Source of the DNA: Thiomicrospira sp. WB1
GTDB lineage: Bacteria; Pseudomonadota; Gammaproteobacteria; Thiomicrospirales; Thiomicrospiraceae
DNA: 64,000 nt
Reading direction: 5' to 3'
Assembly: GCF_001507535.1 (NCBI RefSeq)
Contig: NZ_LQBN01000002.1
Coordinates: 62,001 to 126,000, forward strand
Shown piece after piece: positions 35,429-50,008 of this stretch (positions are counted from its first letter, which is position 1; the number at the start of each line of letters is the position of its first letter). The position numbers and the translations under genes are program-made. The notes under the pieces are model-generated. The model searched no databases, was not told where the DNA came from, and saw only the letters and a list, made by a program, of their open reading frames with translations.

Positions 35429-37095
35429 GCGCTGTCTGACTGCGCCAGCTCCAGCATCTCCTGTGCGTGTTTGCGCGTCTGCTCGGTCAGCGTCATGCCC
35501 CCCAGCATTCGCGCCAGTTCTTCGGTGCGTTCGGAGACAGAAAGAGGGATGACCTGGGTTTGGGTTGTGCCTTTCTGTGTCGTTTTTTCAATGGCGTACT
35601 GGGTCTGAGCGCAGGCCGCAACCTGGGCCAGGTGCGTGATCGCCAAGACCTGACGGTGCTGTCCCAGTTGCTGCATGGTGCGGCCCACCACTTCGGCAAT
35701 GCCGCCACCAATGCCAACGTCCACTTCATCGAAAATCAACGTAGGCAGACTGGCGACTTCCGCGCTGGCGACCTGGATAGCGAGACTGATGCGTGACAGT
35801 TCCCCCCCGGAGGCGACCTTGCTCAAGGCCTGCAGTGGCTGGCCGGGATTGGTGGTGACCTCAAAAGAGGCTTTATCCAGCCCCTGTTCTCCCGGCGTCT
35901 GAGCCGTTGTGATCTCAATCTCAAAGCGGCCTTTTTCCATGCCAAGCGTCTGCATGCGCTCACTGACGGCACGAGACAGGCGTTTGGCCGCTTTTTTTCG
36001 CGATGCGCTTAAGGCGTAGGCGGCCTTTTCATAGGCCTGCCAGGCGTCAGCCACTTTCGCTTCAAGCGCTTCCAATGAGGTCCCCTCGCCGGTCAGCTCT
36101 TGCAATTCATTTTGCAGGGCCAGATGGCGGCTTTCCAGAGCCTCGGGGTCCAGCTGGTATTTTTTGGCCAGGGCAAACAATTCGCCCAGGCGCTCATCCA
36201 CAAATGCCAGTCGCTCGGGGTCGAGTGTGACCTGATGGTCGGCGTGTTGCAGGTCGTTGGCGGCTTCCGTGCAGTCAATCTGTACCGAGCGCAGTTGTTC
36301 CAGCATCGGTTCGATGGGGGCGTGGACGTTTTGAATCCCTTCGAGGGCCGCCACGGCGGCGGCGATTCTTTCAGAGGCGCCGCCGTCGCCGTTGAGGAGG
36401 TCCTGGCCCTGTAACAAAGCCTGTTTGATGTCATGGGCGTGGGACAACGTCTGTTGTTCGGCAGATAATTGTTCGTATTCTTCGGCCAGCGGCGCGACCC
36501 GGTCAAATTCGCTCAGTTGGAATGTGAGCAGTTCAATGCGACTCTGGCGATCGGCTTGATTCTCACGGTGTGCCGCCAGGGTTTGTTGCTGTTTTGACCA
36601 GGCCTGGTAGGTTTGCATGGTTTCGGTCAGCTTGGCGTCGTGTTGCGCGTAGGCATCGATCAGGGCGAGCTGTTCGCGGCTGTGCGTCAGGCTTTGGTGC
36701 TGATGCTGACCGTGGATGTCAATCAGCAGAGCGCTGAGCTGTTTCAACTGAGCCACGGTGGCAGGCAGCCCGTTGATGTATGCTTTGGAGCGTCCTTCTT
36801 TGCTCAGGGTGCGTCGCAGCAGGCAGTCGCCCTCGGCATTGAGTTCCTGTTCGGCCAACCAGGCTTGTGCCGCAGGCACGTTCTGAATGTCAAAATCGGC
36901 GGTGACATCGGCTTTGTCGGTGCCGTGGCGAACCAGTCCAGCATCGGCCCGATTGCCCAACGTCAGCCCAAGCGCATCCAGCAAAATCGATTTCCCGGCC
37001 CCGGTTTCACCGGTCAGAGTGGTAAAGCCTGCGGTAAATTCCAGATGCAGGCGGCTGATCAAGGCGAGGTTTTGGATGGTTAAGGCTTGTAACAT
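35425..37095 (-). CDS. recN: DNA repair protein RecN
   Basis: About 556 residues. SMC-like ATPase for double-strand break repair. Walker A GETGAGKS near residue 29, long coiled coil (about 160-370), ABC signature GGELSRISLAIQ and Walker B TLIFDEVDVGIGG near the C-terminus. Its start shares one nucleotide with the nadK stop (TAATG), so nadK-recN is a coupled pair as in many relatives. An exact palindrome copy encodes Tyr-Gln-Ala-Trp-Ser-Lys in the coiled coil. No SOS box was recognised. Confidence 0.96.
   Translation of the reverse strand: MLQALTIQNLALISRLHLEFTAGFTTLTGETGAGKSILLDALGLTLGNRADAGLVRHGTDKADVTADFDIQNVPAAQAWLAEQELNAEGDCLLRRTLSKEGRSKAYINGLPATVAQLKQLSALLIDIHGQHQHQSLTHSREQLALIDAYAQHDAKLTETMQTYQAWSKQQQTLAAHRENQADRQSRIELLTFQLSEFDRVAPLAEEYEQLSAEQQTLSHAHDIKQALLQGQDLLNGDGGASERIAAAVAALEGIQNVHAPIEPMLEQLRSVQIDCTEAANDLQHADHQVTLDPERLAFVDERLGELFALAKKYQLDPEALESRHLALQNELQELTGEGTSLEALEAKVADAWQAYEKAAYALSASRKKAAKRLSRAVSERMQTLGMEKGRFEIEITTAQTPGEQGLDKASFEVTTNPGQPLQALSKVASGGELSRISLAIQVASAEVASLPTLIFDEVDVGIGGGIAEVVGRTMQQLGQHRQVLAITHLAQVAACAQTQYAIEKTTQKGTTQTQVIPLSVSERTEELARMLGGMTLTEQTRKHAQEMLELAQSDSA
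36597..36608. repeat. ACCAGGCCTGGT palindrome, exact copy
   Basis: Inside recN. TTTTG lies on the left, as at 25031 and 29689. Confidence 0.9.
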
Positions 37096-37970
37096 TAAAA
37101 CTTCTGTCCCCAGTTGAGTTTGGCGCGCAAGAGTTTGTAGTGATCATGTTCCTTGGGATGCACCATTTTGATGAATTTGGGATGACGGGTGACATGGGTT
37201 TCGGTGCCCGCGCTGAACTGATAGGTCACCTGCCCGTCGCAAATGATCGAGGCAGTGCCACAGCAGTTTTCGTGCGGGCGAATCAGTATCTGGCTGTCCC
37301 CCGAAGTGACAATTGGACGGTTGCTCATGGTGTGCGGGTTGATCGAGACCAGGGTGACCACGTTCAAGTCGGGTTCGATGATGGGGCCGCCAGCCGACAG
37401 GGCGTAGGCGGTCGATCCGGTGGGGGTGGCAATGATCAGGCCGTCGGAGCGCTGGCTGTTGAGAAAGCGTCCATCTATGAAAGTCTCAAACTCGATCATG
37501 CGTGGGGAATCGTTTTTGTGCAGCACCACGTCATTGAAAGCGACGTCCCGGTAGAGGGCTTTGCCATCTTTCTTGATCAAAACTTCCAGCAGAGTGCGTT
37601 CTTCGCATTCGTAGTTGTTGGCCAGCACTTCGTCCAAGGTGATCATCATGTATTCGGGCGATACATCGGTTAAAAAGCCCAGTCGACCCAGGTTAACCCC
37701 CAGCACCGGCACATCATAATCCACCAGAGCACGGGCCACGTCCAGAAAGGTGCCGTCACCGCCGACCACCACCGCAAAATCGATGCGTTCCAGCAGTTCT
37801 GTTCTGGGAGCCAGCGTTATCCCGTAGCGATCCACCGGAAAGTCTTTGCAGGAGGAGGCATCCAGCAGAACGTCTTTTTTGTGGGTCTGAAAGTATAAGA
37901 CCAGCTTGTCGATCAGCTCCCAGGATTGGATGCCGTTGTATTTGCCAAAAATGCCAATGGTTTGAAACAT
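37095..37970 (-). CDS. nadK: NAD kinase
   Basis: About 291 residues. Phosphorylates NAD to NADP. The GGDGTFLD motif lies near residue 72, with NDVVLHK and the Gly-rich TPTGSTAYALSAGGPI region after it. I chose ATG 37970 (MFQTIGIFGKYNG) because the frame upstream to 38297 has no family similarity and overlaps hrcA antisense. It is divergent from hrcA. Confidence 0.95.
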   Translation of the reverse strand: MFQTIGIFGKYNGIQSWELIDKLVLYFQTHKKDVLLDASSCKDFPVDRYGITLAPRTELLERIDFAVVVGGDGTFLDVARALVDYDVPVLGVNLGRLGFLTDVSPEYMMITLDEVLANNYECEERTLLEVLIKKDGKALYRDVAFNDVVLHKNDSPRMIEFETFIDGRFLNSQRSDGLIIATPTGSTAYALSAGGPIIEPDLNVVTLVSINPHTMSNRPIVTSGDSQILIRPHENCCGTASIICDGQVTYQFSAGTETHVTRHPKFIKMVHPKEHDHYKLLRAKLNWGQKF

Positions 37971-38088
37971 GTCTGTTCTGCCGTTGAAAAATGTCGAAAC
38001 GCCCCCATAATAACGTTTCATGTCCGGTTTGCAATGACCGGGCCCACGTGCACTTGTCGATGTCGCACGAGTATTCAGGAAATCCAGT

Positions 38089-39129
38089 ATGAGAGACCCG
38101 TTTAACGATCGCGCGCAATTGTTGTTTAAGCACTTGATGGCATTATACCTGAACGAGGGGCGGCCAGTCGGGTCGACTGCGCTGGCGAAAATGCCCGATG
38201 TCGGGGTCAGTCCCGCCACGGTGCGCAATGTGATGGCCGACCTGGAACGTCTGGGGCTGGTGCATGCGCCCCACACCTCCGCGGGGCGTGTGCCCACGGA
38301 TCAGGGGTTTCGGGTGTTTGTGGATTCGATTCTGACGCTGCAGCCGTTGGATCAGCAGCTTAAAGCTCGCATCGAAAAAGGGTTCGAGCAGGCTCAGACG
38401 CAGGATGAATTGCTGGGCTCGGCCTCGAACATCCTTTCCGGTTTGACCGGCATGGCCAGTCTGGTGATGGTGCCGCGCAAAGAACAGGAAGTGTTGCGCC
38501 ACATTGATTTTGTACGCCTGAGTGAGACCCGGGTGCTGGTGGTGCTGGTCCTGAACGATCAGGACATTCAGAACCGGATCATTGAGTTTGACGCGCCGGT
38601 ATCGGAAAGCCACCTGATTCAGACGGCCAACTATCTGAATGAGCATTTTCGCGGGTTGCCGCTGTCGGACGTCAAGCACCACATGGTGGCGCGGTTGGAT
38701 ACATTGCGCCAGAATATGGACCAGCTGATGCTGGCCATTGTCGAGGCAACCGATCAGGTGATCGAGCAGAAAATGCAGCAGGACTTGCCGTATTTTGTTT
38801 CCGGTCAGTCCAATCTGCTCAACTATGAAGAATTGGCCCAATCAGACAAGCTCAAGGCGCTTTTCTCTTCGTTCGAAGAGCATTCGCACATGTTGCAGCT
38901 GCTCAACAAGAGCATGGATGCAAAAGGGGTTCAGGTCTTTATCGGCAAAGAGTGCGGAGCGGATTCGTATCAGGACTGCAGTGTGATCACCACACCCTAT
39001 GAACGCGACGGGCAGGTGCTGGGGGTTTTGGGCGTGGTTGGGCCGAGCCGCATGCCATACGATCGCATTGTGCCCCGGGTGGACATGACCGCCCGTATAC
39101 TCAGTTCATTGTTGCGTCAAGACGCCTGA
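38089..39129 (+). CDS. hrcA: heat-inducible transcription repressor HrcA
   Basis: About 346 residues. Represses chaperone genes via CIRCE elements. An N-terminal winged helix (VGVSPATVRNVMADLERLGL, about 35-60) is followed by TSAGRVPTDQGFRVFVD and a GAF-like domain ending in GVVGPSRMPYDRIVP. An AGGAAA precedes the ATG. The usual partners grpE and dnaK do not follow, and I find no CIRCE dyad in the nadK-hrcA gap, so its targets lie elsewhere. Confidence 0.95.
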   Translation: MRDPFNDRAQLLFKHLMALYLNEGRPVGSTALAKMPDVGVSPATVRNVMADLERLGLVHAPHTSAGRVPTDQGFRVFVDSILTLQPLDQQLKARIEKGFEQAQTQDELLGSASNILSGLTGMASLVMVPRKEQEVLRHIDFVRLSETRVLVVLVLNDQDIQNRIIEFDAPVSESHLIQTANYLNEHFRGLPLSDVKHHMVARLDTLRQNMDQLMLAIVEATDQVIEQKMQQDLPYFVSGQSNLLNYEELAQSDKLKALFSSFEEHSHMLQLLNKSMDAKGVQVFIGKECGADSYQDCSVITTPYERDGQVLGVLGVVGPSRMPYDRIVPRVDMTARILSSLLRQDA

Positions 39130-39329
39130 GGCCTAAATGGCATCGACTTTTTTACAGCACCAGTCAAAATTTGATTTCAGTCTTATGGATTTAGAGGAAT
39201 GGATTTTCTTTGTTGTTTGCTGGTAAGTGTTTATGCTAATATTTAAGCTTTTAAGGTATGATCTTAGGGAGTATCCCAAGTTCCTTAAAAGAGAGTTATG
39301 ATTAGGGTTCTAAACGAAATGGAGACTGT
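39130..39329. other. AT-rich intergenic region before the outer-membrane gene
   Basis: Markedly AT-rich compared with the neighbours. TATGCT (about 39232) and TATGAT (about 39258) are possible -10 elements, but no convincing -35 pairs with them. No gene seen. Confidence 0.4.
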
Positions 39330-39974
39330 GTGACTTTTACTTACCAATCAAGAAATATCGCAAAATCAATGGCGACTCTGGCACTGGCTTGCGCAATACC
39401 TTTGCAATCCAATGCAGCCGAGCCCGGTTCACTGGATGGTGTGTACGCTGGGTTGACATTGAATGGTTCGAAACTGGATGGCGACATTACTAATAAAACA
39501 ACGTCAAGCAAAATTGGTTTTGACAGCAATGGAATGGAAGCGGGTATCGGTTTTGAGGCCGGTCTGGGACGAAGCTTTAATGATTTATATCTGGGGGCCA
39601 GTTATCAATATTTAGATAATGGTCTGGGATATGCTGATTTGAACAGCTCTGGCAGTTGGAGTGGAAAGGTCGAAGCGGATAAGATCTGGAATGCGTCGTT
39701 GATTCCAGGTTACTACATCACTCGGAATTTATTAGCCTACGGGCGTTTTGGTATCGGTCAAATTGAAATTTCTACCAGCTCTAGCAGTGATTCAGAAGAC
39801 ATTGATACGATGACTTACGGTTTAGGTATGAAATATGCATTAACAGATATGCTTTCTGCCTCTTTTGAGTATCAGCGCTCAAGTGGTGATGAAGTGTTTG
39901 GATCGAATGAATGGGATGTCGACAGTCAAAGCGTTTTGTTCGGCATTCAATATCGCTACTGTATGATGAAGTAA
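39330..39974 (+). CDS. outer-membrane beta-barrel protein
   Basis: About 214 residues, an OmpW/OmpA-like small barrel by pattern. An N-terminal signal peptide (hydrophobic core about 14-29, ending SNAA) is followed by GVYAGLTLNGSKLDGD and alternating strands such as DLYLGASYQYLDNGLGY and MTYGLGMKYALTD. The C-terminus QYRYCMMK lacks the usual final aromatic. Start: GTG 39330, with GGAG 5 nt upstream; ATG at 39369 is an alternative. AT-rich codons (aat, tta, tat) differ from the neighbours, hinting at transfer or weak codon selection. Function unknown. Confidence 0.7.
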   Translation: MTFTYQSRNIAKSMATLALACAIPLQSNAAEPGSLDGVYAGLTLNGSKLDGDITNKTTSSKIGFDSNGMEAGIGFEAGLGRSFNDLYLGASYQYLDNGLGYADLNSSGSWSGKVEADKIWNASLIPGYYITRNLLAYGRFGIGQIEISTSSSSDSEDIDTMTYGLGMKYALTDMLSASFEYQRSSGDEVFGSNEWDVDSQSVLFGIQYRYCMMK

Positions 39975-39978
39975 GTTC

Positions 39979-40023
39979 TGCCAACTTTGGCAAAACAAGT
40001 CGAGCTTAATCCTTGGCTCGACT
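39979..40023 (+). terminator. two tandem hairpins after the outer-membrane gene
   Basis: TGCCAA-CT-TTGGCA (39979-39992) and AGTCGAGC-N10-GCTCGACT (39998-40023), both perfect. They start 5 nt after the stop. There is no T-run, so termination is uncertain; RNA 3'-end protection is possible. Confidence 0.45.
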
Positions 40024-40144
40024 GCCCACACTGACTTCATGTGTCTTTTTGAGTCATGGTTCTTTTCATGATGCTTGTCTTTGCCTTCCATGCTTTTTTG
40101 AGAGCCGTTTTTCTTGACTCGGTTCCTTTTTATGTCATGTTTTT

Positions 40145-40156
40145 ACCAGGCTTGGT
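40145..40156. repeat. ACCAGGCCTGGT palindrome, one-substitution copy
   Basis: ACCAGGCTTGGT preceded by TTTTT and followed by GAAGG, 5 nt past the epimerase stop. In the direction of that gene the A-rich side would follow the stem, so it is not a terminator. Confidence 0.7.
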
Positions 40157-40161
40157 GAAGG

Positions 40162-41025
40162 TCAATTTTTTTCTAGTAGGTGAGATAGAGCTGCTTCGGG
40201 CGTGGGGTAATGGAAGACAAACCCGTAAGCCTGAAGCCGGGTTGGCAAAACCGCGTGGCTCAGCATCAACACCTGAGCGCCACGCCCGAACATCAGTTTT
40301 AGTTGCCAGGCTGGCAAAGGCAAGCCAAAAGGGCGTTTGAGTACTCTAGCCAGTGTTTGCCCAAATTGATGCTGGGTCACGGGGGTCGGCGCGGTGAGGT
40401 TAACCACGCCGGTCAGATCCGGATGATTCAGGGCGTGTCCAAACGCTCTCACCAAATCATCAATACAGACCCAGCTGAAACATTGTTTACCTCCAGCCAC
40501 CGGCCCGCCCAGCCCGAGCCTGAAAGCGGGCAGCATTTTAGCGAGTGCGCCGCCTTTGGTGTCGAGCACCACGCCAAAACGAAAGATCAGGACGTCATCA
40601 CTCAGTTTTTGAGCCGAGGCTTCCCAGGCCTCGGACAGACGTCCGAGAAAATGCTCGCCGGCCTGGGAGTGGGTTTCATCCAGTGGTGCATCACACGAGC
40701 GTTCCGGGTAAAACCCGATGGCTGAGGCGCTGATGATGCGTTGGGGCCGTTGCTCCGGTTCGAGCGTTTTCAATGCGTTTGCGAGGGCCTGCGTGGTGTC
40801 GATGCGACTGTGCCAGAGTTCGTCTTCATACCCTTTGTGCCAGCGCTTGCCAATGTTGGCGCCAGACAGATGAAACAGGGCATCGGCGCCTTGCAGCGCT
40901 TTGGACAGGTCAAAGTCCGTGGCAAAGGCTTCACGCCCATAGGTGATGACCTCGTGGTGGCGTTCAAAATGGGCTGCCAGCGCCTGCCCGATCAAACCTG
41001 TGCCGCCTGTAATCACGATTTTCAT
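40162..41025 (-). CDS. TIGR01777 family NAD-dependent epimerase
   Basis: About 287 residues, the YfcH/SulA-like branch of the extended short-chain dehydrogenases. The N-terminal Rossmann motif [12 protein letters not shown] is followed by FHLSGANI and a YxxxK region that is not canonical. The substrate is unknown; in the family it is often described as a cell-division or sugar-epimerase-like protein without proof. It overlaps the Msr gene by 4 nt, the third gene of a bcp-msr-epimerase operon. Confidence 0.85.
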
Positions 41026-42356
41026 TGGGTCGCCTCGTCTTCATCCGGTACAAATGTCAGGACATTGCCGTTGATGCAATAGCGCTTGCCGGTCGGCGGT
41101 GGACCATCGTTGAAGACGTGTCCCAGATGAATGCCTGAACTGGCGCTGCGTACTTCGATTCGATTCATACCATGTGAGTCATCCGGGTGCTCGGTGATGG
41201 CACCGGGCACGGGATTGAAAAAGCTGGGCCAGCCGGACCCGCTTTCGAACTTGGTGTCGGTGCGAAACAGCGGGGCGCCGGTAATCGGGTCAACGAAGGT
41301 ACCTGGACGTTTTTCATCCAGATGCGAGCCGGTAAAGGGGCGCTCCGTCCCACTTTCGAACGCGATGCGCTGCTGCTCCGGGGTCAGGATCTGAAAGCCG
41401 AGCCATTCCCAGAAACGGGTTTTTTCGCCTTTGTAGCCGGTAAAGCGCGCTACTTCGCGTCCATTCTTGAAAAGCACCATGGTCGGCGTGGCAAACAGTG
41501 GTTTGGCCAGCTCCCAACCCGTCGGTGCCTCGGGGGTGAGGGTGGTGGTGACGGCTACCTCAGACTGCCAGTCGTTGAGGATTTCCCGCTTGAACTGATC
41601 GCAGAAGGCGCAGTCTTTGGCTTCAAACACCACCAGCTGCTGTTCAAAGTTCAGAGCCTCGCCATCGAGGGCGGGGGCCACATCGGCGGCTTTTTCCCTG
41701 CTGGCCAGTCCAGGGTAGGCCACGCCTGTACCGCCGAGGCCGCAATAGCCGTTGGGGTTTTTGGCGAGATAGTCCTGATGGTAGTCTTCAGCGGTGATGT
41801 AATTTTTCAAAGGCGCAATTTCGGTTTGGATTGTGCCCTTTCCGGCCTCGGTTAGGGCTTGCTGATAGCGCGCCATGGTTTGACGTGCCACAGTCATCTG
41901 GTCGTCATTTTGGGTGTAAATCGCGCTGCGGTAGTTGGTGCCGACGTCGTTGCCCTGACGGTTTTTCTGGGTGGGATCGTGGTTTTCCCAGAATCCGGCC
42001 AGCACTCGTTCAAGACTGACGGCTTCCGGGTCAAAAAACACCCGCACCACTTCGGCGTGATTGCGTTGGTCGCTTACTCCCATGCGGATCTGTTTTTCCA
42101 ACCCCAGTACGTCGTAGTAACCTGCGTCCGGGTCATCGCCTCCGGCATAGCCGCTTTCCACGCGCAGCACGCCGTCAATTTCGCCCATGCGTTTTTCCGC
42201 GCCCCAGAAACATCCCATGCCGAGCACGATGGACTCGGCGTTGTCGGGCAGTTGTGAGACAGCAATGTCATTCATGGGGGCCTCCTTGGCGCAAGCAGTT
42301 AAACTCAGTGAAAAAGCCAGCCATGGCGCCAGCAAAAGGGTGCGGAACGTAAGCAT
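41022..42356 (-). CDS. MsrA-thioredoxin-MsrB fusion lipoprotein
   Basis: About 444 residues. Repairs both epimers of methionine sulfoxide. N-terminal lipobox L19-T-A-C22 predicts a membrane-anchored lipoprotein facing the periplasm. MsrA (about 40-215) has catalytic Cys49 in GMGCFWG and a resolving Cys205 in NGYCGLGG. A thioredoxin-like domain (about 236-315) has Cys249-Ala-Phe-Cys252 and a cis-Pro loop ATPT. MsrB (about 320-440) has catalytic Cys427 in RYCINGN but lacks the zinc CxxC pairs. Neisserial PilB has thioredoxin first; here it sits in the middle. Start 42356 (MLTFRTLLL) has a good GGAGGG. One nt separates it from the peroxiredoxin stop. Confidence 0.9.
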
Positions 42357-42357
42357 T

Positions 42358-42930
42358 TCAATCTCCCTCCAGTGTGGCAACCGTTTTCAATTGTTTCAAG
42401 TCAGTCAAAACCTGTTTGACGTGTGTGTCCGGATCAACATTCCGATAAATTTTGGCCAATGTCCCGTCTGGAGCAATGATAAAGGTCTGGCGTTTGGCAA
42501 ATTTGACCACGACCAGATCCAGCAGGGCACCGTATTGCGCCGCCACGTCTGCATCGGTATCGGCCAGCAGTGAGAACGGCAGGTCATGTTTTTCAGCAAA
42601 GGCCGCATGGCTGGCTTGAGAATCAACGCTCACGCCCAAGACCACTGCGTCCTGCTGGATCAGGCGGTTGATGTTGTCGCGGAAGCTACAGGCTTCTGTG
42701 GTGCAGCCGGGGGTATCGTTTTTGGGATAAAAGTACAAAACCAGCCATTTGCCTTGGTAGTCGGAGAGTTGATGGGGCTGGTTGTGCTGATCCATCAAGC
42801 GAAAATCCGGTGCGGTCTGTCCAATCGATAGCGCCTGACTCGCAACCGCGACAGAGCTGCTCAGCAGGAAAAAGAGGAGCAGCCCCCTTCTGACAGGGCG
42901 GGCGAGCTGAGTGTGTAATGACTTGATCAT
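42358..42930 (-). CDS. exported peroxiredoxin of the Bcp/PrxQ family
   Basis: About 190 residues. Reduces peroxides with two cysteines: Cys76 (peroxidatic) and Cys81 (resolving) in PGCTTEAC, in PrxQ spacing. Unlike cytosolic Bcp, it starts with a basic n-region and a hydrophobic segment (about 16-31, ending VAVAS), so it should be exported. The start at 42930 has a perfect AGGAGG 4 nt upstream. Placed directly before the MsrA-Trx-MsrB lipoprotein, it points to a periplasmic oxidant defence operon. A degenerate palindrome lies in its upstream region. Confidence 0.88.
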
Positions 42931-42988
42931 GGGACCTCCTGTTGGATTCATCCGAACCCTTGGCCTTTTAATCATTATTCATGTTTTG

Positions 42989-43000
42989 ACCAGGCCTGTC
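42989..43000. repeat. ACCAGGCCTGGT palindrome, degenerate copy
   Basis: ACCAGGCCTGTC preceded by TTTTG, about 60 nt upstream of the peroxiredoxin start. Confidence 0.5.
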
Positions 43001-43059
43001 CATGATAGAAAGGGTTTTTTGAAGTGTTTTGTATTGTTTTTGTATAGGGTGTGTTGTAG

Positions 43060-43755
43060 TCAGGTTTTTTTGCCGGTTTCGATGGGTACGGTGGTGTGCA
43101 GGTCGTTGGCCATGGATTTTTTCTTGAGCCAAGTGGAGGCGGCGTGTTGCGCGGAACGTTCCATCTGGGCCCGTTTGCCGTCCTGTGGGTATTTTGGGGA
43201 GGGTTGTCGTTCCAGAGTGTTGCTGACCCAAAAGCGCCAATAAGCGATCAGATCCGAGTTCCAGAACCGATCAGGGTCGGCACTGACATAATGCAGGAAC
43301 TTATCCAGTGATTGTTTGGCTGTGGGTTCATTCAATCCTTCCTGCTGGGCGTAATCGAGCATTTGTGCGCTGTGGTGCGCAACCAGCTCCGACAACTTTT
43401 GATGGAGAAGGTTGTCGGTTCCCTGAAAACGCTTGAGGTGGCGCTTGAGGTTGTCGTCCATCACTGGCGGAGTGGCGTGCACCGGGCAGGTCTGTCCGGT
43501 TTGGGCCTGGTAGGCATTCGGATTGAGTGACAGGCGGCAGAATCCCCGGTTGTCGCGTTTGACGTGCAAGATGTCGCGCTCTTCCAGTCGCAACAGGACC
43601 TTGTAGACCAGTTCGGGTTTCCAGAAATCAAAGACTTCCACCAGCTCTTGGGTTTTCAGTGGGCGCTGGTCGTAGTGTTCGTTCATCCAGCCGAGAAACA
43701 CCGCTTCGTGCATGGAAAGGGTCTGGGCAACCTGAGTGTCAAAGGTGATGTTCAT
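43060..43755 (-). CDS. DnaT-like replication accessory protein (tentative)
   Basis: About 231 residues. The N-terminus (residues 1-80) looks like a winged helix, with QELVEVFDFWKPELVYKVLLRLEERDIL. A C-terminal block FLHYVSADPDRFWNSDLIAYWRFWVSN resembles the DNA-binding segment of the DnaT/phage primosome family. That resemblance, and its place 21 nt after a gene of the phage P/DUF6475 kind, suggests a helicase-loading role. This is inference. AGGATG precedes the ATG. No other phage genes are near. Confidence 0.55.
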   Translation of the reverse strand: MNITFDTQVAQTLSMHEAVFLGWMNEHYDQRPLKTQELVEVFDFWKPELVYKVLLRLEERDILHVKRDNRGFCRLSLNPNAYQAQTGQTCPVHATPPVMDDNLKRHLKRFQGTDNLLHQKLSELVAHHSAQMLDYAQQEGLNEPTAKQSLDKFLHYVSADPDRFWNSDLIAYWRFWVSNTLERQPSPKYPQDGKRAQMERSAQHAASTWLKKKSMANDLHTTVPIETGKKT

Positions 43756-43776
43756 AAAACAGTCATCCTGAGCGGT

Positions 43777-44427
43777 TTACGCCGGATCCGATGGGGGCTG
43801 TTGGCTCAGCCATTTTGAACTGGCTTTGGCGACTTCAATCGGTGCCTGAGGTGTCTTGAGATGGCGCGCGACCTGCCGTGCCTGTTCGGCATCCCCGATG
43901 TAAACCGGTGGTTGCAGCCGAGCGCCTTTGATTTTGGCATTCTGCTGATTCACGATGCCGGTGAGTGCCTCGGGCAGATGCTGGGCCGCAGGCGTTCCAT
44001 ACAATGCCCGATAGGCATTTTTGAACTCATTGGCTTTAAAAGTTAACGATTTTTCATCCGGCAGATTACACAGTGCGATCCAGCCGCCCATGCGATGGAT
44101 GATGTGATGAATCAGCGGGTCGGAAAACACCACGTCCTGATAGGCCCCGACACGACGAATTGCGTTTTCCACCAGATTCCATGCGTTCAGGGCCCGGTCC
44201 TGGCTGCCACCTTTGCAGTGTTTGATGATGTCGGAAATCTTGGGCCACCATTTGCCTTCTTCCGGGTGTTGCATATGGGCATTGAACGCTTGCTGGACCT
44301 GCTCGATTGAATAGTTTTTCAAGCCGTTCCAGTAAAGTTCAAAGGTCATTTCCGTCAAGTCTTTTTCATAATAGGCAAAGACGGTGGTCATTATCTGCGA
44401 AAATTTTTCCAGATCATGTTGTTGCAT
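43777..44427 (-). CDS. DUF6475/replication protein P-like protein (tentative)
   Basis: About 216 residues. The N-terminal region (LYWNGLKNYSIEQVQQAFNAHMQHPEEGKWWPKISDI, given here in pieces by residues 35-72) and the block RVGAYQDVVFSDPLIHHIIHRMGG (about 100-125) match a family common in phages of Betaproteobacteria and Gammaproteobacteria, next to their replication genes. Lambda P loads DnaB; the role here is inferred. Start 44427 (MQQHDLEKF) has AGGAA upstream; an upstream extension to 44445 is possible. It is the first gene of a two-gene unit. Confidence 0.65.
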   Translation of the reverse strand: MQQHDLEKFSQIMTTVFAYYEKDLTEMTFELYWNGLKNYSIEQVQQAFNAHMQHPEEGKWWPKISDIIKHCKGGSQDRALNAWNLVENAIRRVGAYQDVVFSDPLIHHIIHRMGGWIALCNLPDEKSLTFKANEFKNAYRALYGTPAAQHLPEALTGIVNQQNAKIKGARLQPPVYIGDAEQARQVARHLKTPQAPIEVAKASSKWLSQQPPSDPA

Positions 44428-44581
44428 GGGGTTCCTATTCGCCAAAGGCCGGGTCAGATCGGTCAGGATTGGTGTATGATAATCTCAGAGCATTTATGAA
44501 AAGCAGCTCATTTTGGTCACCGTATTGTTCGCTTTTTTGTCGGTTGAGTCGGTGACGTTCTTTACAGCAGAGTATAGCATT

Positions 44582-45907
44582 TTGGCCACGAATTTTTCGA
44601 AATGGATCGTCTCAATTGTCTGTGCCGCGGGATTGTTCTGGGTTGCCGGTGCCACCCAGCTGACCTGGGCGGATCAGTCCCGGTCTCTGCCGGGAACGTT
44701 GGTTTCGTCTGATGCCCTGTCTGTCTGGACTGCGGAGGCGGGCGCGATATCGACGGTTTGGCGCATGCAGGATCAGGTTCCCAGAATTCCGGCGTCCACG
44801 GTCAAGCTCATTACTGCCCTTCTGGCACTGGAGACCTGGTCGCCAGATCATCGCTTTCATACGGACGTGCATCTGCAGTCTACCGAGCGCGGATGGGAGC
44901 TGGTGGTCAAAGGGTATGGCGATCCGTTTCTGGTGTCAGAAACCTTGGCCACACTGGCCGCTCGCTTGACCGAACGTTTGAAGCAAAAGGGTATTGGCCG
45001 CATTGAGCGTTTGGTATTGGATGATGGGTATTTTGATGTAGCTCCGGAAACGGTCCCCGGGTTGTCGCAGACAGACAATCCATACGATGCGCTGCCAACG
45101 GCCCTGATGGCCAATTTCAATACCCTCAAGGTGCGACGCGAAGACGGTCGTATTCGAAGTGGCGAGCCGCAAACCCCGTTGACCGCTTTGGCGGCATCGA
45201 TCGCGTCAGAGCGTTTGCCCGCGGATCAGGCTGTCGGACGAATCAATCTGGGGCAGCGCCCCGAGCGCAGTGCGGTGTATTTCGGCCAGTTGCTGCAGAC
45301 GTTTCTGGCGCGTGAAGACGTGACTGTGCAGAGCGTCTCGCGTCGGACGCCGGATTCGGTCGCGCTGTCGGAAAACCAGGCCTGGTCAAAAACCCCCTTT
45401 TTGCGTTTTGAAAACCCCAAGCCTTTGGCAGAGCAGGTGCGTGCCATGCTCAAATACTCAACCAATCTGATTGCGCATCATCTGATTTTAAAGCTCAGTG
45501 CGGAGCGTTTCGGCCCGCCAGCGACCATGGCAAGTGTCAGGCGCTACCTGTCGCATGCGTTGAAGGCGCGTTTTGGCTGGGCGGAAGTAACGGTTTACGA
45601 GGGCGCCGGACTGAGTCGTCAGAATCGACTGAGCGCACGACAGCTCGGGCAGGTATTGAACGCGTTTGCTCCCTGGCGTTCATTGTTGCCACAGGAGCGA
45701 ACCGGGGTGTGGGCCAAGACCGGCACCTTGCAAGGCGTGCGTACCCTCGCCGGATATGTGTGTCCGACCAGTTGTGATCAGTCGGTGGTGCCGTTTGTGT
45801 GGCTGTTGAATGACACAGGGCCACTGGATGCGCGCTGGCAATTTGCTCAACGGTTCCGTCGGGCTTTGCAGACTGGCGACCAGGCGTTGGCCGCTTCAAC
45901 CCCCTGA
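44582..45907 (+). CDS. dacB: D-alanyl-D-alanine carboxypeptidase/endopeptidase (PBP4)
   Basis: Peptidase family S13, periplasmic, cleaves stem-peptide cross-links. The three serine-hydrolase motifs are SxxK in PASTVKLIT (near 44795), SxN in KYSTNLIAHH and KTG in VWAKTGTLQG. No ATG is available at the N-terminus. TTG 44582 gives a clean signal peptide (MATNFSKWIVSIVC to TWA), so I prefer it. TTG 44513 and GTG 44552 are longer alternatives. None has a good ribosome site. An exact palindrome copy encodes Asn-Gln-Ala-Trp-Ser-Lys. Confidence 0.88.
   Translation: MATNFSKWIVSIVCAAGLFWVAGATQLTWADQSRSLPGTLVSSDALSVWTAEAGAISTVWRMQDQVPRIPASTVKLITALLALETWSPDHRFHTDVHLQSTERGWELVVKGYGDPFLVSETLATLAARLTERLKQKGIGRIERLVLDDGYFDVAPETVPGLSQTDNPYDALPTALMANFNTLKVRREDGRIRSGEPQTPLTALAASIASERLPADQAVGRINLGQRPERSAVYFGQLLQTFLAREDVTVQSVSRRTPDSVALSENQAWSKTPFLRFENPKPLAEQVRAMLKYSTNLIAHHLILKLSAERFGPPATMASVRRYLSHALKARFGWAEVTVYEGAGLSRQNRLSARQLGQVLNAFAPWRSLLPQERTGVWAKTGTLQGVRTLAGYVCPTSCDQSVVPFVWLLNDTGPLDARWQFAQRFRRALQTGDQALAASTP
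45375..45386. repeat. ACCAGGCCTGGT palindrome, exact copy
   Basis: Inside dacB. CAAAAA follows on the right, the mirror of the TTTTG seen on the left of other copies. Confidence 0.9.
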
Positions 45908-45911
45908 GGCC

Positions 45912-46571
45912 TTAGTCAATGCCCAGTAATTTGTGGGTCTGCAAGCTCAGGCGCCATTGGGGGTGAGCCAGGCAATAGGCCAGCGTGTCTTTTAAATGGG
46001 CGCTTGTGTTTTGCGAGGGGGTGTTCGGGTCGGCCATGGGTTGAAGATAGAAAAAATCAAAATCCAGGTCTGCGACCTGATGCGGGTGCAGGTTGGGTTG
46101 GGGGTATACCAGTTTCAGTTCGTCGCCATGGTCTTGAATCAACGGGGCACCCGCTTTGGGGCTGACGCATAACCAGTCAATGCCTGGCGGCGCTTTTTGC
46201 GTGCCATTGGTTTCCACGGCAATTTCAAAGCCAGCCTGGTGAAAGGCGTCGATCAGATCAGTATTGACCTGTAGCAGCGGTTCACCGCCGGTTAGGACGA
46301 CAAAGGGCGCCGTTTTGTCTTGTTCGACTTCATCGGGCCAAAGGCCCAGCAGGTGGCTGACAAGTGCCTCTGCGGTGTCAAAGCGCCCACCGTTCTGACC
46401 GTCTGTTCCCACAAAATCGGTGTCGCAGAACTGGCACACGGCTTTGTGGCGATCCGCTTCAAGGCCCGTCCAGAGGTTGCAGTGAGCAAACCGGCAGAAA
46501 ATGGCGGGGCGGCCGGAATGAAACCCTTCGCCCTGCAGTGAATAAAATGCTTCTTTGATGCGGTACGCCAT
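45912..46571 (-). CDS. queE: 7-carboxy-7-deazaguanine synthase
   Basis: About 219 residues. Radical SAM enzyme of queuosine synthesis. The QueE-type cluster motif C-x14-C-x2-C is complete (HCNLWTG ... CQFC). It also has FYSLQGEGFHSG at the N-terminus and LTGGEPLLQ. Start 46571 (MAYRIKEAFY) fits the family; the frame extends to 46595. It is convergent with dacB (4-nt gap) and divergent from leuC. No other queuosine genes are present in the window. Confidence 0.93.
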   Translation of the reverse strand: MAYRIKEAFYSLQGEGFHSGRPAIFCRFAHCNLWTGLEADRHKAVCQFCDTDFVGTDGQNGGRFDTAEALVSHLLGLWPDEVEQDKTAPFVVLTGGEPLLQVNTDLIDAFHQAGFEIAVETNGTQKAPPGIDWLCVSPKAGAPLIQDHGDELKLVYPQPNLHPHQVADLDFDFFYLQPMADPNTPSQNTSAHLKDTLAYCLAHPQWRLSLQTHKLLGID

Positions 46572-46636
46572 CGTTGTCAGGTCCCTCTCACCCATCTCAA
46601 CCCAGGTGAAAAATTGCCCTGGTCAAGTCGCGAAAA

Positions 46637-46645
46637 TGCTACAAT
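46637..46645 (+). promoter_or_regulatory. leuC: extended -10 promoter for leuC
   Basis: TGCTACAAT fits the extended -10 pattern (TGnTATAAT, one mismatch) about 87 nt before leuC. No clear -35. Downstream, CGGTGAGC and GCTTACCG (about 46663-46688) could form a leader stem. Confidence 0.5.
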
Positions 46646-46731
46646 ATTGGACCATTTTAACAGGCCGGTGAGCAAAAATCGCTTACCGAACCAGGATAGA
46701 TCGTTTAATTCATCGCCGGAGAAAACAGAGC

Positions 46732-48174
46732 ATGACAGACACGACCGCCCCGCAGACTCTGTATGACAAATTGTGGGCCTCGCATCGGATTCGAGAGGAA
46801 TCCGACGGCACCGCATTGATCTACATTGATCGCCAGCTTCTGCACGAAGTGACCTCGCCGCAAGCGTTTGAGGGATTGCGCCTGGCCGGTCGAAAACCTT
46901 GGCGGGTTGAGGCCAATGTGGCAACCTGTGACCACAATGTGCCGACCACCTCCCTGAAAGGCGGGGTGTCTTCCATCGAAGATCCGGTGTCCCGCATTCA
47001 GGTGCAGACACTGGATAAGAATGCGGCGGAATTTGGCATTCTGGAATTTCCAATGGGGGATCCGCGTCAGGGGATTGTGCATGTTGTGGGGCCGGAAGAA
47101 GGGATTACCCTGCCCGGTATGACGCTGGTGTGTGGTGATTCGCATACGGCGACGCATGGTGCGCTGGGTGCGCTGGCCCATGGCGTGGGCACTTCTGAAG
47201 TCGAGCACGTCCTCGCGACGCAGTGCCTGATTCAAAAGAAAATGAAAAACATGCTGGTCAAGGTGGATGGCAAACTGGCCCCCGGTGTCACACCCAAAGA
47301 TGTGATCCTGGCGGTGATCGGAGAGATCGGCACCGCCGGTGGCACGGGTTATGCGATCGAATTTGGTGGTCAGGTGTTCCGTGACATGTCGATTGAGGGC
47401 CGCATGACCGTCTGTAATATGGCGATTGAAGCCGGGGCGCGTGTGGGTCTGGTAGCGGTGGACGAAAAGACCATTGAGTATGTGAAAGGTCGTCCCTATG
47501 CGCCGTCCGGTGCGCTTTGGGATCAGGCAGTTGAGGCCTGGCGGACTCTCAAGTCTGACGAGGGCGCTGAGTTTGACAAGGTGGTTGAGCTGGATGGGTC
47601 GGCCATTGAACCGCAGGTGTCATGGGGGACATCGCCAGAGATGGTGGGCGCGATCAATGGTCGGGTCCCGGACCCGGATCAGGCGTCGGATTCGGTCAAG
47701 GCTGAGAGCATCCGTAAGGCCTTGCAATACATGGGGCTCCAGCCTGGCACGCCCTTTGTGGATATTGGGGTGGATTATATTTTTATCGGCTCCTGTACCA
47801 ATTCGCGCATTGAAGATTTGCGTGCGGCGGCGCAGGTGGTGAAAGGGCGTAAAGTCGCCGACAGTGTCGAACTGGCTATGGTGGTGCCCGGTTCCGGTTT
47901 GGTCAAGCAGCAGGCGGAAGCCGAAGGATTGGACCGCATCTTTCTCGAAGCCGGGTTCGAATGGCGAAATCCCGGTTGCTCCATGTGTTTGGCGATGAAC
48001 GCGGACAAGTTGCCGGCCGGCAAGCACTGTGCCTCGACCTCCAACCGGAATTTTGAAGGGCGCCAGGGCGCCGGTGGTCGGACCCACCTGGTCAGCCCCG
48101 AGATGGCAGCGGCGGCGGCCGTGGCCGGGCACTTTGTTGATGTTCGTCCCTTGATGCAGGAGGCCAGCGCATGA
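46732..48174 (+). CDS. leuC: 3-isopropylmalate dehydratase large subunit
   Basis: About 480 residues. Aconitase-like [4Fe-4S] subunit of isopropylmalate isomerase in leucine synthesis. Cluster cysteines are in [12 protein letters not shown] and [10 protein letters not shown]. Other blocks are [10 protein letters not shown] and [30 protein letters not shown], split here by position. It overlaps leuD by 4 nt. leuCDB are consecutive; leuA is not in the window. Confidence 0.97.
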
Positions 48175-48827
48175 GTTTACAGAAATTTACCAAATTCGAG
48201 GCGTTGGTCGCCCCCATGGATCGAGCCAATGTGGACACCGATGCCATCATTCCCAAGCAGTTTTTGAAGTCGATCAAGCGCACCGGTTTTGGCCCTAATT
48301 TGTTTGATGAATGGCGTTATGAAGATGTTGGGCAACCGGGTATGGACAACAGTCAGCGTCCGTTGAAAAAGGATTTTGTGCTTAATCAGCCGCGTTATCA
48401 GGGGGCAAAATTATTGTTGGCCCGTGAAAATTTTGGCTGCGGTTCCAGCCGTGAGCATGCCCCCTGGGCCCTGAAAGATTATGGGTTTGATGTGATTGTG
48501 GCACCCAGTTTTGCCGATATTTTCTTTAACAACAGTTTTAAAAACGGCATTTTGCCGATTGTGCTGCCAGCGGACACTGTAGAGCGGCTGTTTCAGGCGG
48601 TGTATGACCAGGAAGGTTATGCCTTGACGGTGGACCTGGAAAATCAGCAACTGATCCAGCCTGATGGCGAGCCGATCGCGTTTGACGTCGACAGCTTTCG
48701 CAAGCACTGTCTGCTCAACGGCCTGGATGACATCGGGCTGACATTGCAGCACCGTGACGAGATCGAAGCGTTTGAAACCGACTACCGTCAGCGAGCGCCT
48801 TGGTTGTTTGCCGAACCGGCACAGTGA
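48171..48827 (+). CDS. leuD: 3-isopropylmalate dehydratase small subunit
   Basis: About 218 residues. Swivel domain partner of LeuC. Motifs: [33 protein letters not shown] and [21 protein letters not shown] lies inside the leuC end, and the ATGA overlap supports coupling. Confidence 0.97.
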
Positions 48828-48882
48828 GTTTTATCCATAATATGCCCTGCGTGAGGGCGCAGAAAGAGACAGGAACCATTTG

Positions 48883-49962
48883 ATGACACAGCAAGTTTTG
48901 GTGTTGCCCGGCGATGGCATCGGGCCTGAAATTACCGCAGAAGCCGTCAAGGTGTTGGACGCGTTGCGTCAAGCCGACGGCTTGGATATTACCTTAAGCG
49001 AAGATCTGGTCGGTGGCGCGGCGTACGACGCACACGGGAAGCCTCTGGCAGATGAAACCCTGGAAAAAGCCCGGCAGGCGGATGCGATTTTGCTGGGTGC
49101 CGTCGGCGGTTACCAGTGGGAATCGCTGGACATTTCCGTTCGCCCTGAAAAGGGACTGCTGACCTTGCGCTCCGATTTGGAACTGTTTGCCAATCTTCGT
49201 CCCGCGTATCTTTATCCGCAGCTGGCCTCGGCCTCGACCCTGAAGCCTGAAGTGGTCGCGGGGTTGGACATTCTGATTGTGCGGGAACTGACCGGGGGGA
49301 TTTATTTTGGTCAGCCCCGTGGCGTACGCACTCTAGAAAACGGCGAGCGTCAAGGCTACAACACCTATGTGTACAGAGAGTCCGAAATCCGCCGCATTGC
49401 CAAAGTCGCGTTTGAAGCGGCGCAAAAACGCAACAAAAAGCTTTGTTCGGTCGATAAGGCCAATGTGCTGGAGGTGACAGAACTGTGGCGCGAGATTGTG
49501 GATGAGATGGCCTGTGACTATCCCGATGTGGAAGTGTCTCACATGTATGTCGACAATGCGGCCATGCAGTTGGTGCTCAACCCAAAACAGTTTGATGTGG
49601 TGGTCACTGGCAACATGTTCGGCGATATTTTGTCAGACGAAGCCTCGATGTTGACCGGTTCAATTGGTATGCTGGCTTCGGCGTCTTTGGATGTGAACAA
49701 TAAAGGCATGTACGAGCCCAGTCATGGATCGGCGCCCGACATTGCCGGACAGAACAAAGCCAACCCGCTGGCGACCATTCTTTCGGCGGCCATGATGTTG
49801 CGTTTCAGTCTCGGGCGTCCCGAGCTGGCGGACAAGATTGAGCAGGCGGTCAGCCAGGTACTGGATCAGGGGTTGCGGACCGGTGACATTGCCGGCGAAG
49901 GTGATACCGTTGTGGGCACACGTGAAATGGGCGATGCCGTCGTGAAGGCGCTGGGAGTATAG
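48883..49962 (+). CDS. leuB: 3-isopropylmalate dehydrogenase
   Basis: About 359 residues. NAD-dependent oxidative decarboxylation in leucine synthesis. Motifs: [26 protein letters not shown], and [22 protein letters not shown] 48883 has AGGAA 7 nt upstream; a TTG directly before is less likely. The leuD-leuB gap holds a short stem (GCCCT-GCGTG-AGGGC). Confidence 0.97.
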
Positions 49963-49967
49963 TTTTT

Positions 49968-49979
49968 ACCAGGCCTGGC
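49968..49979. repeat. ACCAGGCCTGGT palindrome, one-substitution copy
   Basis: ACCAGGCCTGGC preceded by TTTTT, in the 46-nt gap between leuB and the M23 peptidase gene. Confidence 0.7.
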
Positions 49980-50008
49980 AGCCTGTCTGCCGAATCAACT
50001 GAGCGATT

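Follow-up and report, generated by a model that had tools for sequence, protein, structure and literature searches.

A DUF6475 gene pair fixed in Hydrogenovibrio genomes lacking dciA as a candidate phage-derived helicase-loading module

Introduction

The described system closest to the locus presented here is DopC/DopE, a lambda O/P-derived pair that Brezellec reportedly described in 2017 in two orders without dciA and dnaC; DopE is said to be the lambda-P-derived member and DopC the lambda-O-derived one. DopCE is also named in passing elsewhere (PMC13326638). The dnaC/I genes have themselves been presented as domesticated phage loaders that replaced dciA, and the same study left open how the helicase is handled without DciA and DnaC, for example in Cellvibrionales (Brezellec 2016, PMC5109545). 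DciA, DnaC and lambda P have all been reported to use the LH-DH module of DnaB (PMC9912922), and this shared target makes a swap of unrelated loaders plausible. According to that study, one residue of the DnaB DH helix tells the helicase types apart, being serine in those served by DciA and glycine in those served by DnaC/I (PMC9912922).

Here we describe two adjacent genes, P0001 and P0002, in a 64-kb stretch of DNA (the window) from a genome of 2.28 Mb in six contigs. The pair would resemble DopC/DopE in consisting of two phage-derived chromosomal genes, a loader and an O-like partner, in genomes without dciA and dnaC. It differs from DopC/DopE, as the latter is reported, in that its putative loader is a DUF6475 protein without PF06992, its loader gene comes first and it is confined to one genus. 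Its likeness to lambda P and O lies in the slot of phage DUF6475 genes after an O-like gene and in a remote, collinear profile similarity, whereas the pair lacks PF06992, is chromosomal and fixed, and has no ori repeats that could be found around it. With DciA and DnaC/DnaI the pair would share the task of loading the helicase at oriC, but no sequence relation of these to P0001 or P0002 was found (PF05258, IstB/DnaC).

Genomic context of the gene pair

Both genes lie on the minus strand. P0001 (43777..44427, 216 aa), the proposed lambda-P-type loader of DnaB, starts at an ATG at 44427, a start that aligns in 11/11 orthologs; after a 21-nt spacer (43756..43776, minus strand) it is followed by P0002 (43060..43755, 231 aa), its proposed recruiter or initiator partner. 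The coordinates and the gap agree with those given in an earlier note on this DNA. With a shared strand and so short a spacer, the two genes are probably read from one transcript.

The conserved side of the locus (44513..49962) comprises dacB, queE, leuC, leuD and leuB, where queE and leuCDB were identified by reading the ORFs. Pfam assigned Peptidase_S13 to dacB and identified a peroxiredoxin and a PMSR/SelR protein among the neighbours, matching the earlier description of the surroundings as dacB and a redox operon. The gene at 41025-42380 (minus strand), next to that for the peroxiredoxin, encodes a fusion of methionine sulfoxide reductase A (PMSR) and B (SelR) domains with a thioredoxin-like domain. 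In a by-eye reading of the window's listed ORFs, no integrase, capsid or repressor gene was seen near the pair, as the earlier note had also observed, nor any other phage gene. No tRNA was found in the 64-kb window, no repeats of 14 nt or longer around the pair, and no Rfam match at the gathering threshold in window positions 37000-50000. Promoter-like sites (2, against a shuffle mean of 1.2, sd 1.1) and terminator-like sites (2, against 3.4, sd 1.9) were both within chance.

P0001 is a DUF6475 protein of phage type

By its sequence, P0001 belongs to a phage protein family. It matched DUF6475 (PF20081) in Pfam at E 2.3e-30, with 105.2 bits against a cut-off of 28.5, which confirms the family resemblance first suggested for this gene. 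Among PHROGs it matched phrog_10105 (E 1.9e-61) and phrog_9804 (E 3.6e-14), and its residues 9-70 matched phrog_2289, labelled 'helicase loader' (E 4.9e-5); all three were also matched by 11/11 P0001 orthologs. The description of P0001 as replication P-like is upheld by the helicase-loader match across the orthologs, but not by Phage_lambda_P: neither PF06992 nor phrog_109 was matched directly by P0001, and PF06992 had 0 matches in the window's genome.

Profile comparison points to a remote likeness. The DUF6475 and lambda-P profiles aligned over 114 collinear columns (hhalign E 0.0072, probability 5%), and the score of 25.2 exceeded the best of 150 column shuffles, 23.9, by a narrow margin. 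A bridge is offered by phrog_9804, which is common to P0001 and to the PF06992 loader of another genus, g176 (E 1.3e-4), described below. The structure model of P0001 was of low confidence (pLDDT 44.8). Neither P0001 nor P0002 matched DciA (PF05258) or IstB/DnaC in Pfam; PDB sequence searches with the pair returned nothing meaningful, and an NCBIfam search with the pair and scans of viral_contigs returned nothing informative.

P0002 combines a predicted winged helix with a helical C-terminal part

The AlphaFold model of P0002 (mean pLDDT 70.7) predicts an N-terminal winged helix (residues about 1-90) and a helical C-terminal part. A fold search against the PDB returned common winged helices, among them a Pol III subunit (Z 9.1), the RepA-type initiators 4pql/4pt7 (Z 7.9) and MarR, which indicates a fold rather than a function. 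Foldseek gave no PDB match at E 0.001. Three BFVD entries, none of them named, matched at E 0.001 or better; named phage replication or DnaD-type proteins in BFVD appeared from E 2.9e-3, with TM-scores near 0.3.

Searched alone, P0002 matched nothing in PHROGs or in NCBIfam, and its one match in Pfam was at chance level. Of its 11 orthologs, two matched the 'replication initiation protein' family phrog_11233 (best E 4.4e-4), four matched a winged-helix regulator family in Pfam (best E 0.0023), and two orthologs searched again against PHROGs at E 0.1 had no match. No replication family in Pfam was matched by P0002 or its 11 orthologs. In a tblastn search of phages nothing reached E 0.01, the best match being to a Streptococcus satellite phage at 0.06. 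Comparison with lambda O and five further O-position proteins as a mixed set gave nothing (E 0.34), and a plasmid search was uninformative.

The earlier note had also seen a DnaT-like C-terminal block in this protein. DnaT (PF17948) was matched in Pfam neither by P0002 nor by any of the 11 orthologs, and against E. coli DnaT only 19 columns were aligned, in the N-terminal part. The C-terminal part aligned to DnaT repeats at hhalign E 0.0064, with one of 100 shuffles scoring higher; on these comparisons the DnaT-like label is weakly supported. The winged helix of P0002 matched that of a winged-helix/DnaT protein of genus g176 (E 2.4e-5; score 41.8, where the best shuffle reached 26.5), and phrog_11233 is pointed to both by that protein and by two of the P0002 orthologs.

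DUF6475 genes in phages and comparable pairs in other genera

In the phage collection searched, DUF6475 genes occurred in at least 33 records. In Bcep176 the order is a CII-like gene, a primosomal protein gene and the DUF6475 gene. In Aeromonas phage 56 and in Shewanella phage X14, too, an O-like or primosomal gene precedes the DUF6475 gene, which in X14 carries the annotation 'replication protein P' and has NinG downstream; in VvAW1 it follows a DUF3268 gene. Phage DUF6475 genes usually occupy the slot after an O-like gene, which is the slot of the lambda P helicase loader.

A recurring chromosomal pair was found in genus g176. One member is a winged-helix protein in which DnaT is matched twice (5.8e-41); the other is a lambda-P protein (9.1e-10), found in 5/7 genomes. 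It resembles the Hydrogenovibrio pair in being conserved and chromosomal and in the match between the winged helices, but differs in its two clear DnaT domains, its PF06992 loader and its O-P order; it may itself be a DopCE case. These genomes measure about 1.2 Mb, and the pair (L150, L158-L162) is flanked by an apparent aroG gene and an efflux operon.

Genus g109 (L152, L154, L155; 3.0-3.9 Mb) holds another candidate domesticated pair: in two genomes a 325-aa protein stands beside a 262-aa PF06992 lambda-P protein, ahead of an apparent class B acid phosphatase gene, and in a third genome the pair is broken up. Three genomes of genus g37 in family f31 (G063, G207, G313; 1.4-1.6 Mb) carry a single DUF6475 gene each (L095, L098, L099), which follows a 307-326-aa gene, possibly as a second fixed lineage or within prophages. 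At four loci from the class-wide search (L093, L096, L103, L105) DUF6475 genes are followed by three small ORFs that look conjugation-like by eye (TraA/TraL/TraE-like), suggesting that DUF6475 proteins may have a use in integrative or plasmid elements as well; one genome (G379) had four DUF6475 matches.

Distribution, synteny and selection

The genus set comprised 11 genomes, including that of the window (G000), and was taken as Hydrogenovibrio, which NCBI files in Thiotrichales, Piscirickettsiaceae. PF20081 and P0002 each matched 11 of 55 relatives, namely the 11 genus members, where both genes are single-copy and adjacent; neither search matched any of the 44 other relatives, and for P0002 the search outside the genus but within the family covered 23 genomes. 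A further Hydrogenovibrio record, UBA654, carries both genes too. Class-wide, DUF6475 was found in 11/369 genomes, the window's genome included.

A family-wide search of 62 genomes with a P0001 profile recovered all 11 genus members and one of the 51 others. This sole outside match (L182, G017:C147) comes from a sister genus and lies at a contig end, with an O-like gene identified by position (no Pfam match), a YdaS/Cro-type gene and a CI/S24-type repressor as neighbours. The gene sits in a lambda-like prophage, so phages with such a loader infect the family.

Synteny was checked in relatives, as the earlier note had proposed: queE and leuCDB share the pair's neighbourhood in one orientation in 10/10 other genus genomes, and in G007 the pair lies 2.7 kb from queE. 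A dacB gene was detected nearby in 6/10 of them, and the msrAB/bcp side is variable. Distances of P0001 and P0002 between genomes track those of lpxC, leuB and queE (r 0.65-0.92). The dN/dS values were 0.005-0.087 for P0001 and 0.022-0.076 for P0002, next to 0.019-0.043 for lpxC, 0.012-0.025 for leuB and 0.038-0.143 for queE; they are approximate, since several dS values lie above 1 and, for P0001, P0002 and lpxC, one pair in five is saturated. Between G000 and G005, P0001 and P0002 show faster evolution than lpxC and leuB. P0001 and P0002 are under strong purifying selection.

The earlier note had named two observations that would speak against a domesticated module, a lack of similarity to replication families and a recent, strain-specific prophage scar. 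Such similarity is present, and the pair is found genus-wide at one constrained locus. We reject the strain-specific scar on the pair's presence in 11/11 genomes, at one locus and with low dN/dS.

Loss of dciA and search for DnaC

DciA (PF05258) was matched in 21/23 same-family genomes outside the genus and in 0/11 within it. A sister-genus DciA profile likewise matched 46 of the 51 non-genus family genomes against none of the 11 Hydrogenovibrio genomes, and after inspection of the locus dciA was seen in 49/51 sister genomes. Three genomes of genus g2 (G011, G017, G024) were considered as dciA-less exceptions; in each, a 142-174-aa ORF lies between lpxC and secA, and these ORFs matched the DciA profile, when searched alone as a four-sequence set, at E 4.5e-11 to 1.2e-12. 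PF05258 also matches G024, and G017 at 0.0016, under the cut-off. These exceptions were rejected, as a diverged dciA is in place. The dciA locus is unassembled in G429, whose contig breaks off within lpxC, and in G417, where lpxC was not found.

The native locus was compared at 19 of 30 lpxC loci, eight from sister genomes and 11 from Hydrogenovibrio, with LpxC, SecA and the dacB-type neighbour confirmed by Pfam. All eight sister loci have dciA on the opposite strand in the interval from lpxC to secA. At 11/11 Hydrogenovibrio loci 46-338 nt separate the lpxC match from the SecA match that follows it, and dciA is missing; a tblastn search of these loci for DciA gave a best E of 0.05, at chance level, and a six-frame DciA profile search gave nothing better than E 0.23. 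A hidden, diverged dciA, sought with the sister-genus profile in whole genomes and at the native locus, was not found. Since sister genera of the family keep dciA, its loss is a genus-level event, and as the proposed replacement is seen in one clade, the swap would count as one evolutionary event, not many.

The IstB profile matched three frames in the window's genome, of 561, 834 and 859 aa. The 561-aa frame, adjacent to DnaN, reads as DnaA, and the others are of large-ATPase size, so a resident DnaC was rejected for this genome. Among the matches listed, the strong IstB match in the genus was an IstB beside an IstA-like gene (G006). IstB matches of ~450 aa, considered as dnaB candidates, read as RarA/MgsA by eye and were set aside. 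The check for dnaC and dciA that the earlier note had called for thus found dciA in 0/11 Hydrogenovibrio genomes and, in that of the window, no resident DnaC, the outcome to be expected of a domesticated loader.

Discussion

The pair is fixed genus-wide at one locus and constrained, and dciA has been lost from its native locus. We consider it likely that the pair is a phage helicase-loader/recruiter module that was domesticated in the Hydrogenovibrio ancestor and took over the job of DciA. By analogy with lambda P, P0001 would bind the replicative helicase DnaB and deliver it onto single-stranded DNA at oriC; P0002 would bind DNA or DnaA and tether the loader-helicase complex there, much as phage O-type proteins do for P. 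For the module serving the chromosome that the earlier note had proposed, the genus-wide presence, the constraint and the missing dciA are borne out; a loading activity, essentiality and the chromosomal role are what we infer from them.

The strongest competing reading, which we regard as unlikely, is that the pair is nothing other than DopC/DopE and that the 2017 description already took in Hydrogenovibrio. The lambda O/P-derived pair said to occur in two orders lacking both loaders would fit such a case. In the 2016 survey, most Thiotrichales species have neither dciA nor dnaC/I (Brezellec 2016, PMC5109545), and NCBI places Hydrogenovibrio in Thiotrichales. The identity is at odds with the absence of a Phage_lambda_P match in P0001 and of any Pfam replication family in P0002, and with sister genera of the same family that keep dciA, which makes this a genus-level event. 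Domesticated phage loaders replacing dciA are a known kind of event; what would be new is the DUF6475 version with its reversed gene order, prior coverage of which by the 2017 work we hold doubtful. In the part of the literature on DUF6475 and on a Hydrogenovibrio helicase loader that was covered, no report of the pair was found.

A second reading assigns the pair to replication restart, in the manner of PriC or DnaT, with loading at oriC left to another factor or to DnaA and DnaB alone. DnaT is a restart protein, and P0002 bears a weak likeness to it in its C-terminal part (hhalign E 0.0064), yet a restart role leaves the coincidence with dciA loss in exactly Hydrogenovibrio unexplained and appears improbable to us. 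Very improbable is an old prophage remnant kept for another reason, such as interference with the use of DnaB by incoming phages: the sister-genus prophage with its DUF6475 gene does place such phages in the family, but defence genes usually vary between strains, and the pair stands in 11/11 genomes at one locus with low dN/dS and a joint loss of dciA.

Within the preferred reading, a domesticated loader that replaced DciA, we tentatively suggest that the Hydrogenovibrio loader came from a phage lineage other than that of DopCE and that the winged-helix partner itself recognises oriC or DnaA, a proposal we hold as plausible without leaning on it. If a separate phage source is correct, phage modules would have taken over helicase loading several times, each time independently, and in groups as small as one genus. 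Domestication would also suggest a role for DUF6475, which still stands as a 'domain of unknown function' across those 33 or more phage records. Several species of the sulfur bacteria in Hydrogenovibrio are named and in culture. As Hydrogenovibrio lost dciA where its sisters kept it, and one candidate replacement is present in 11/11 genomes, the question of what takes the place of DciA becomes testable in these bacteria.
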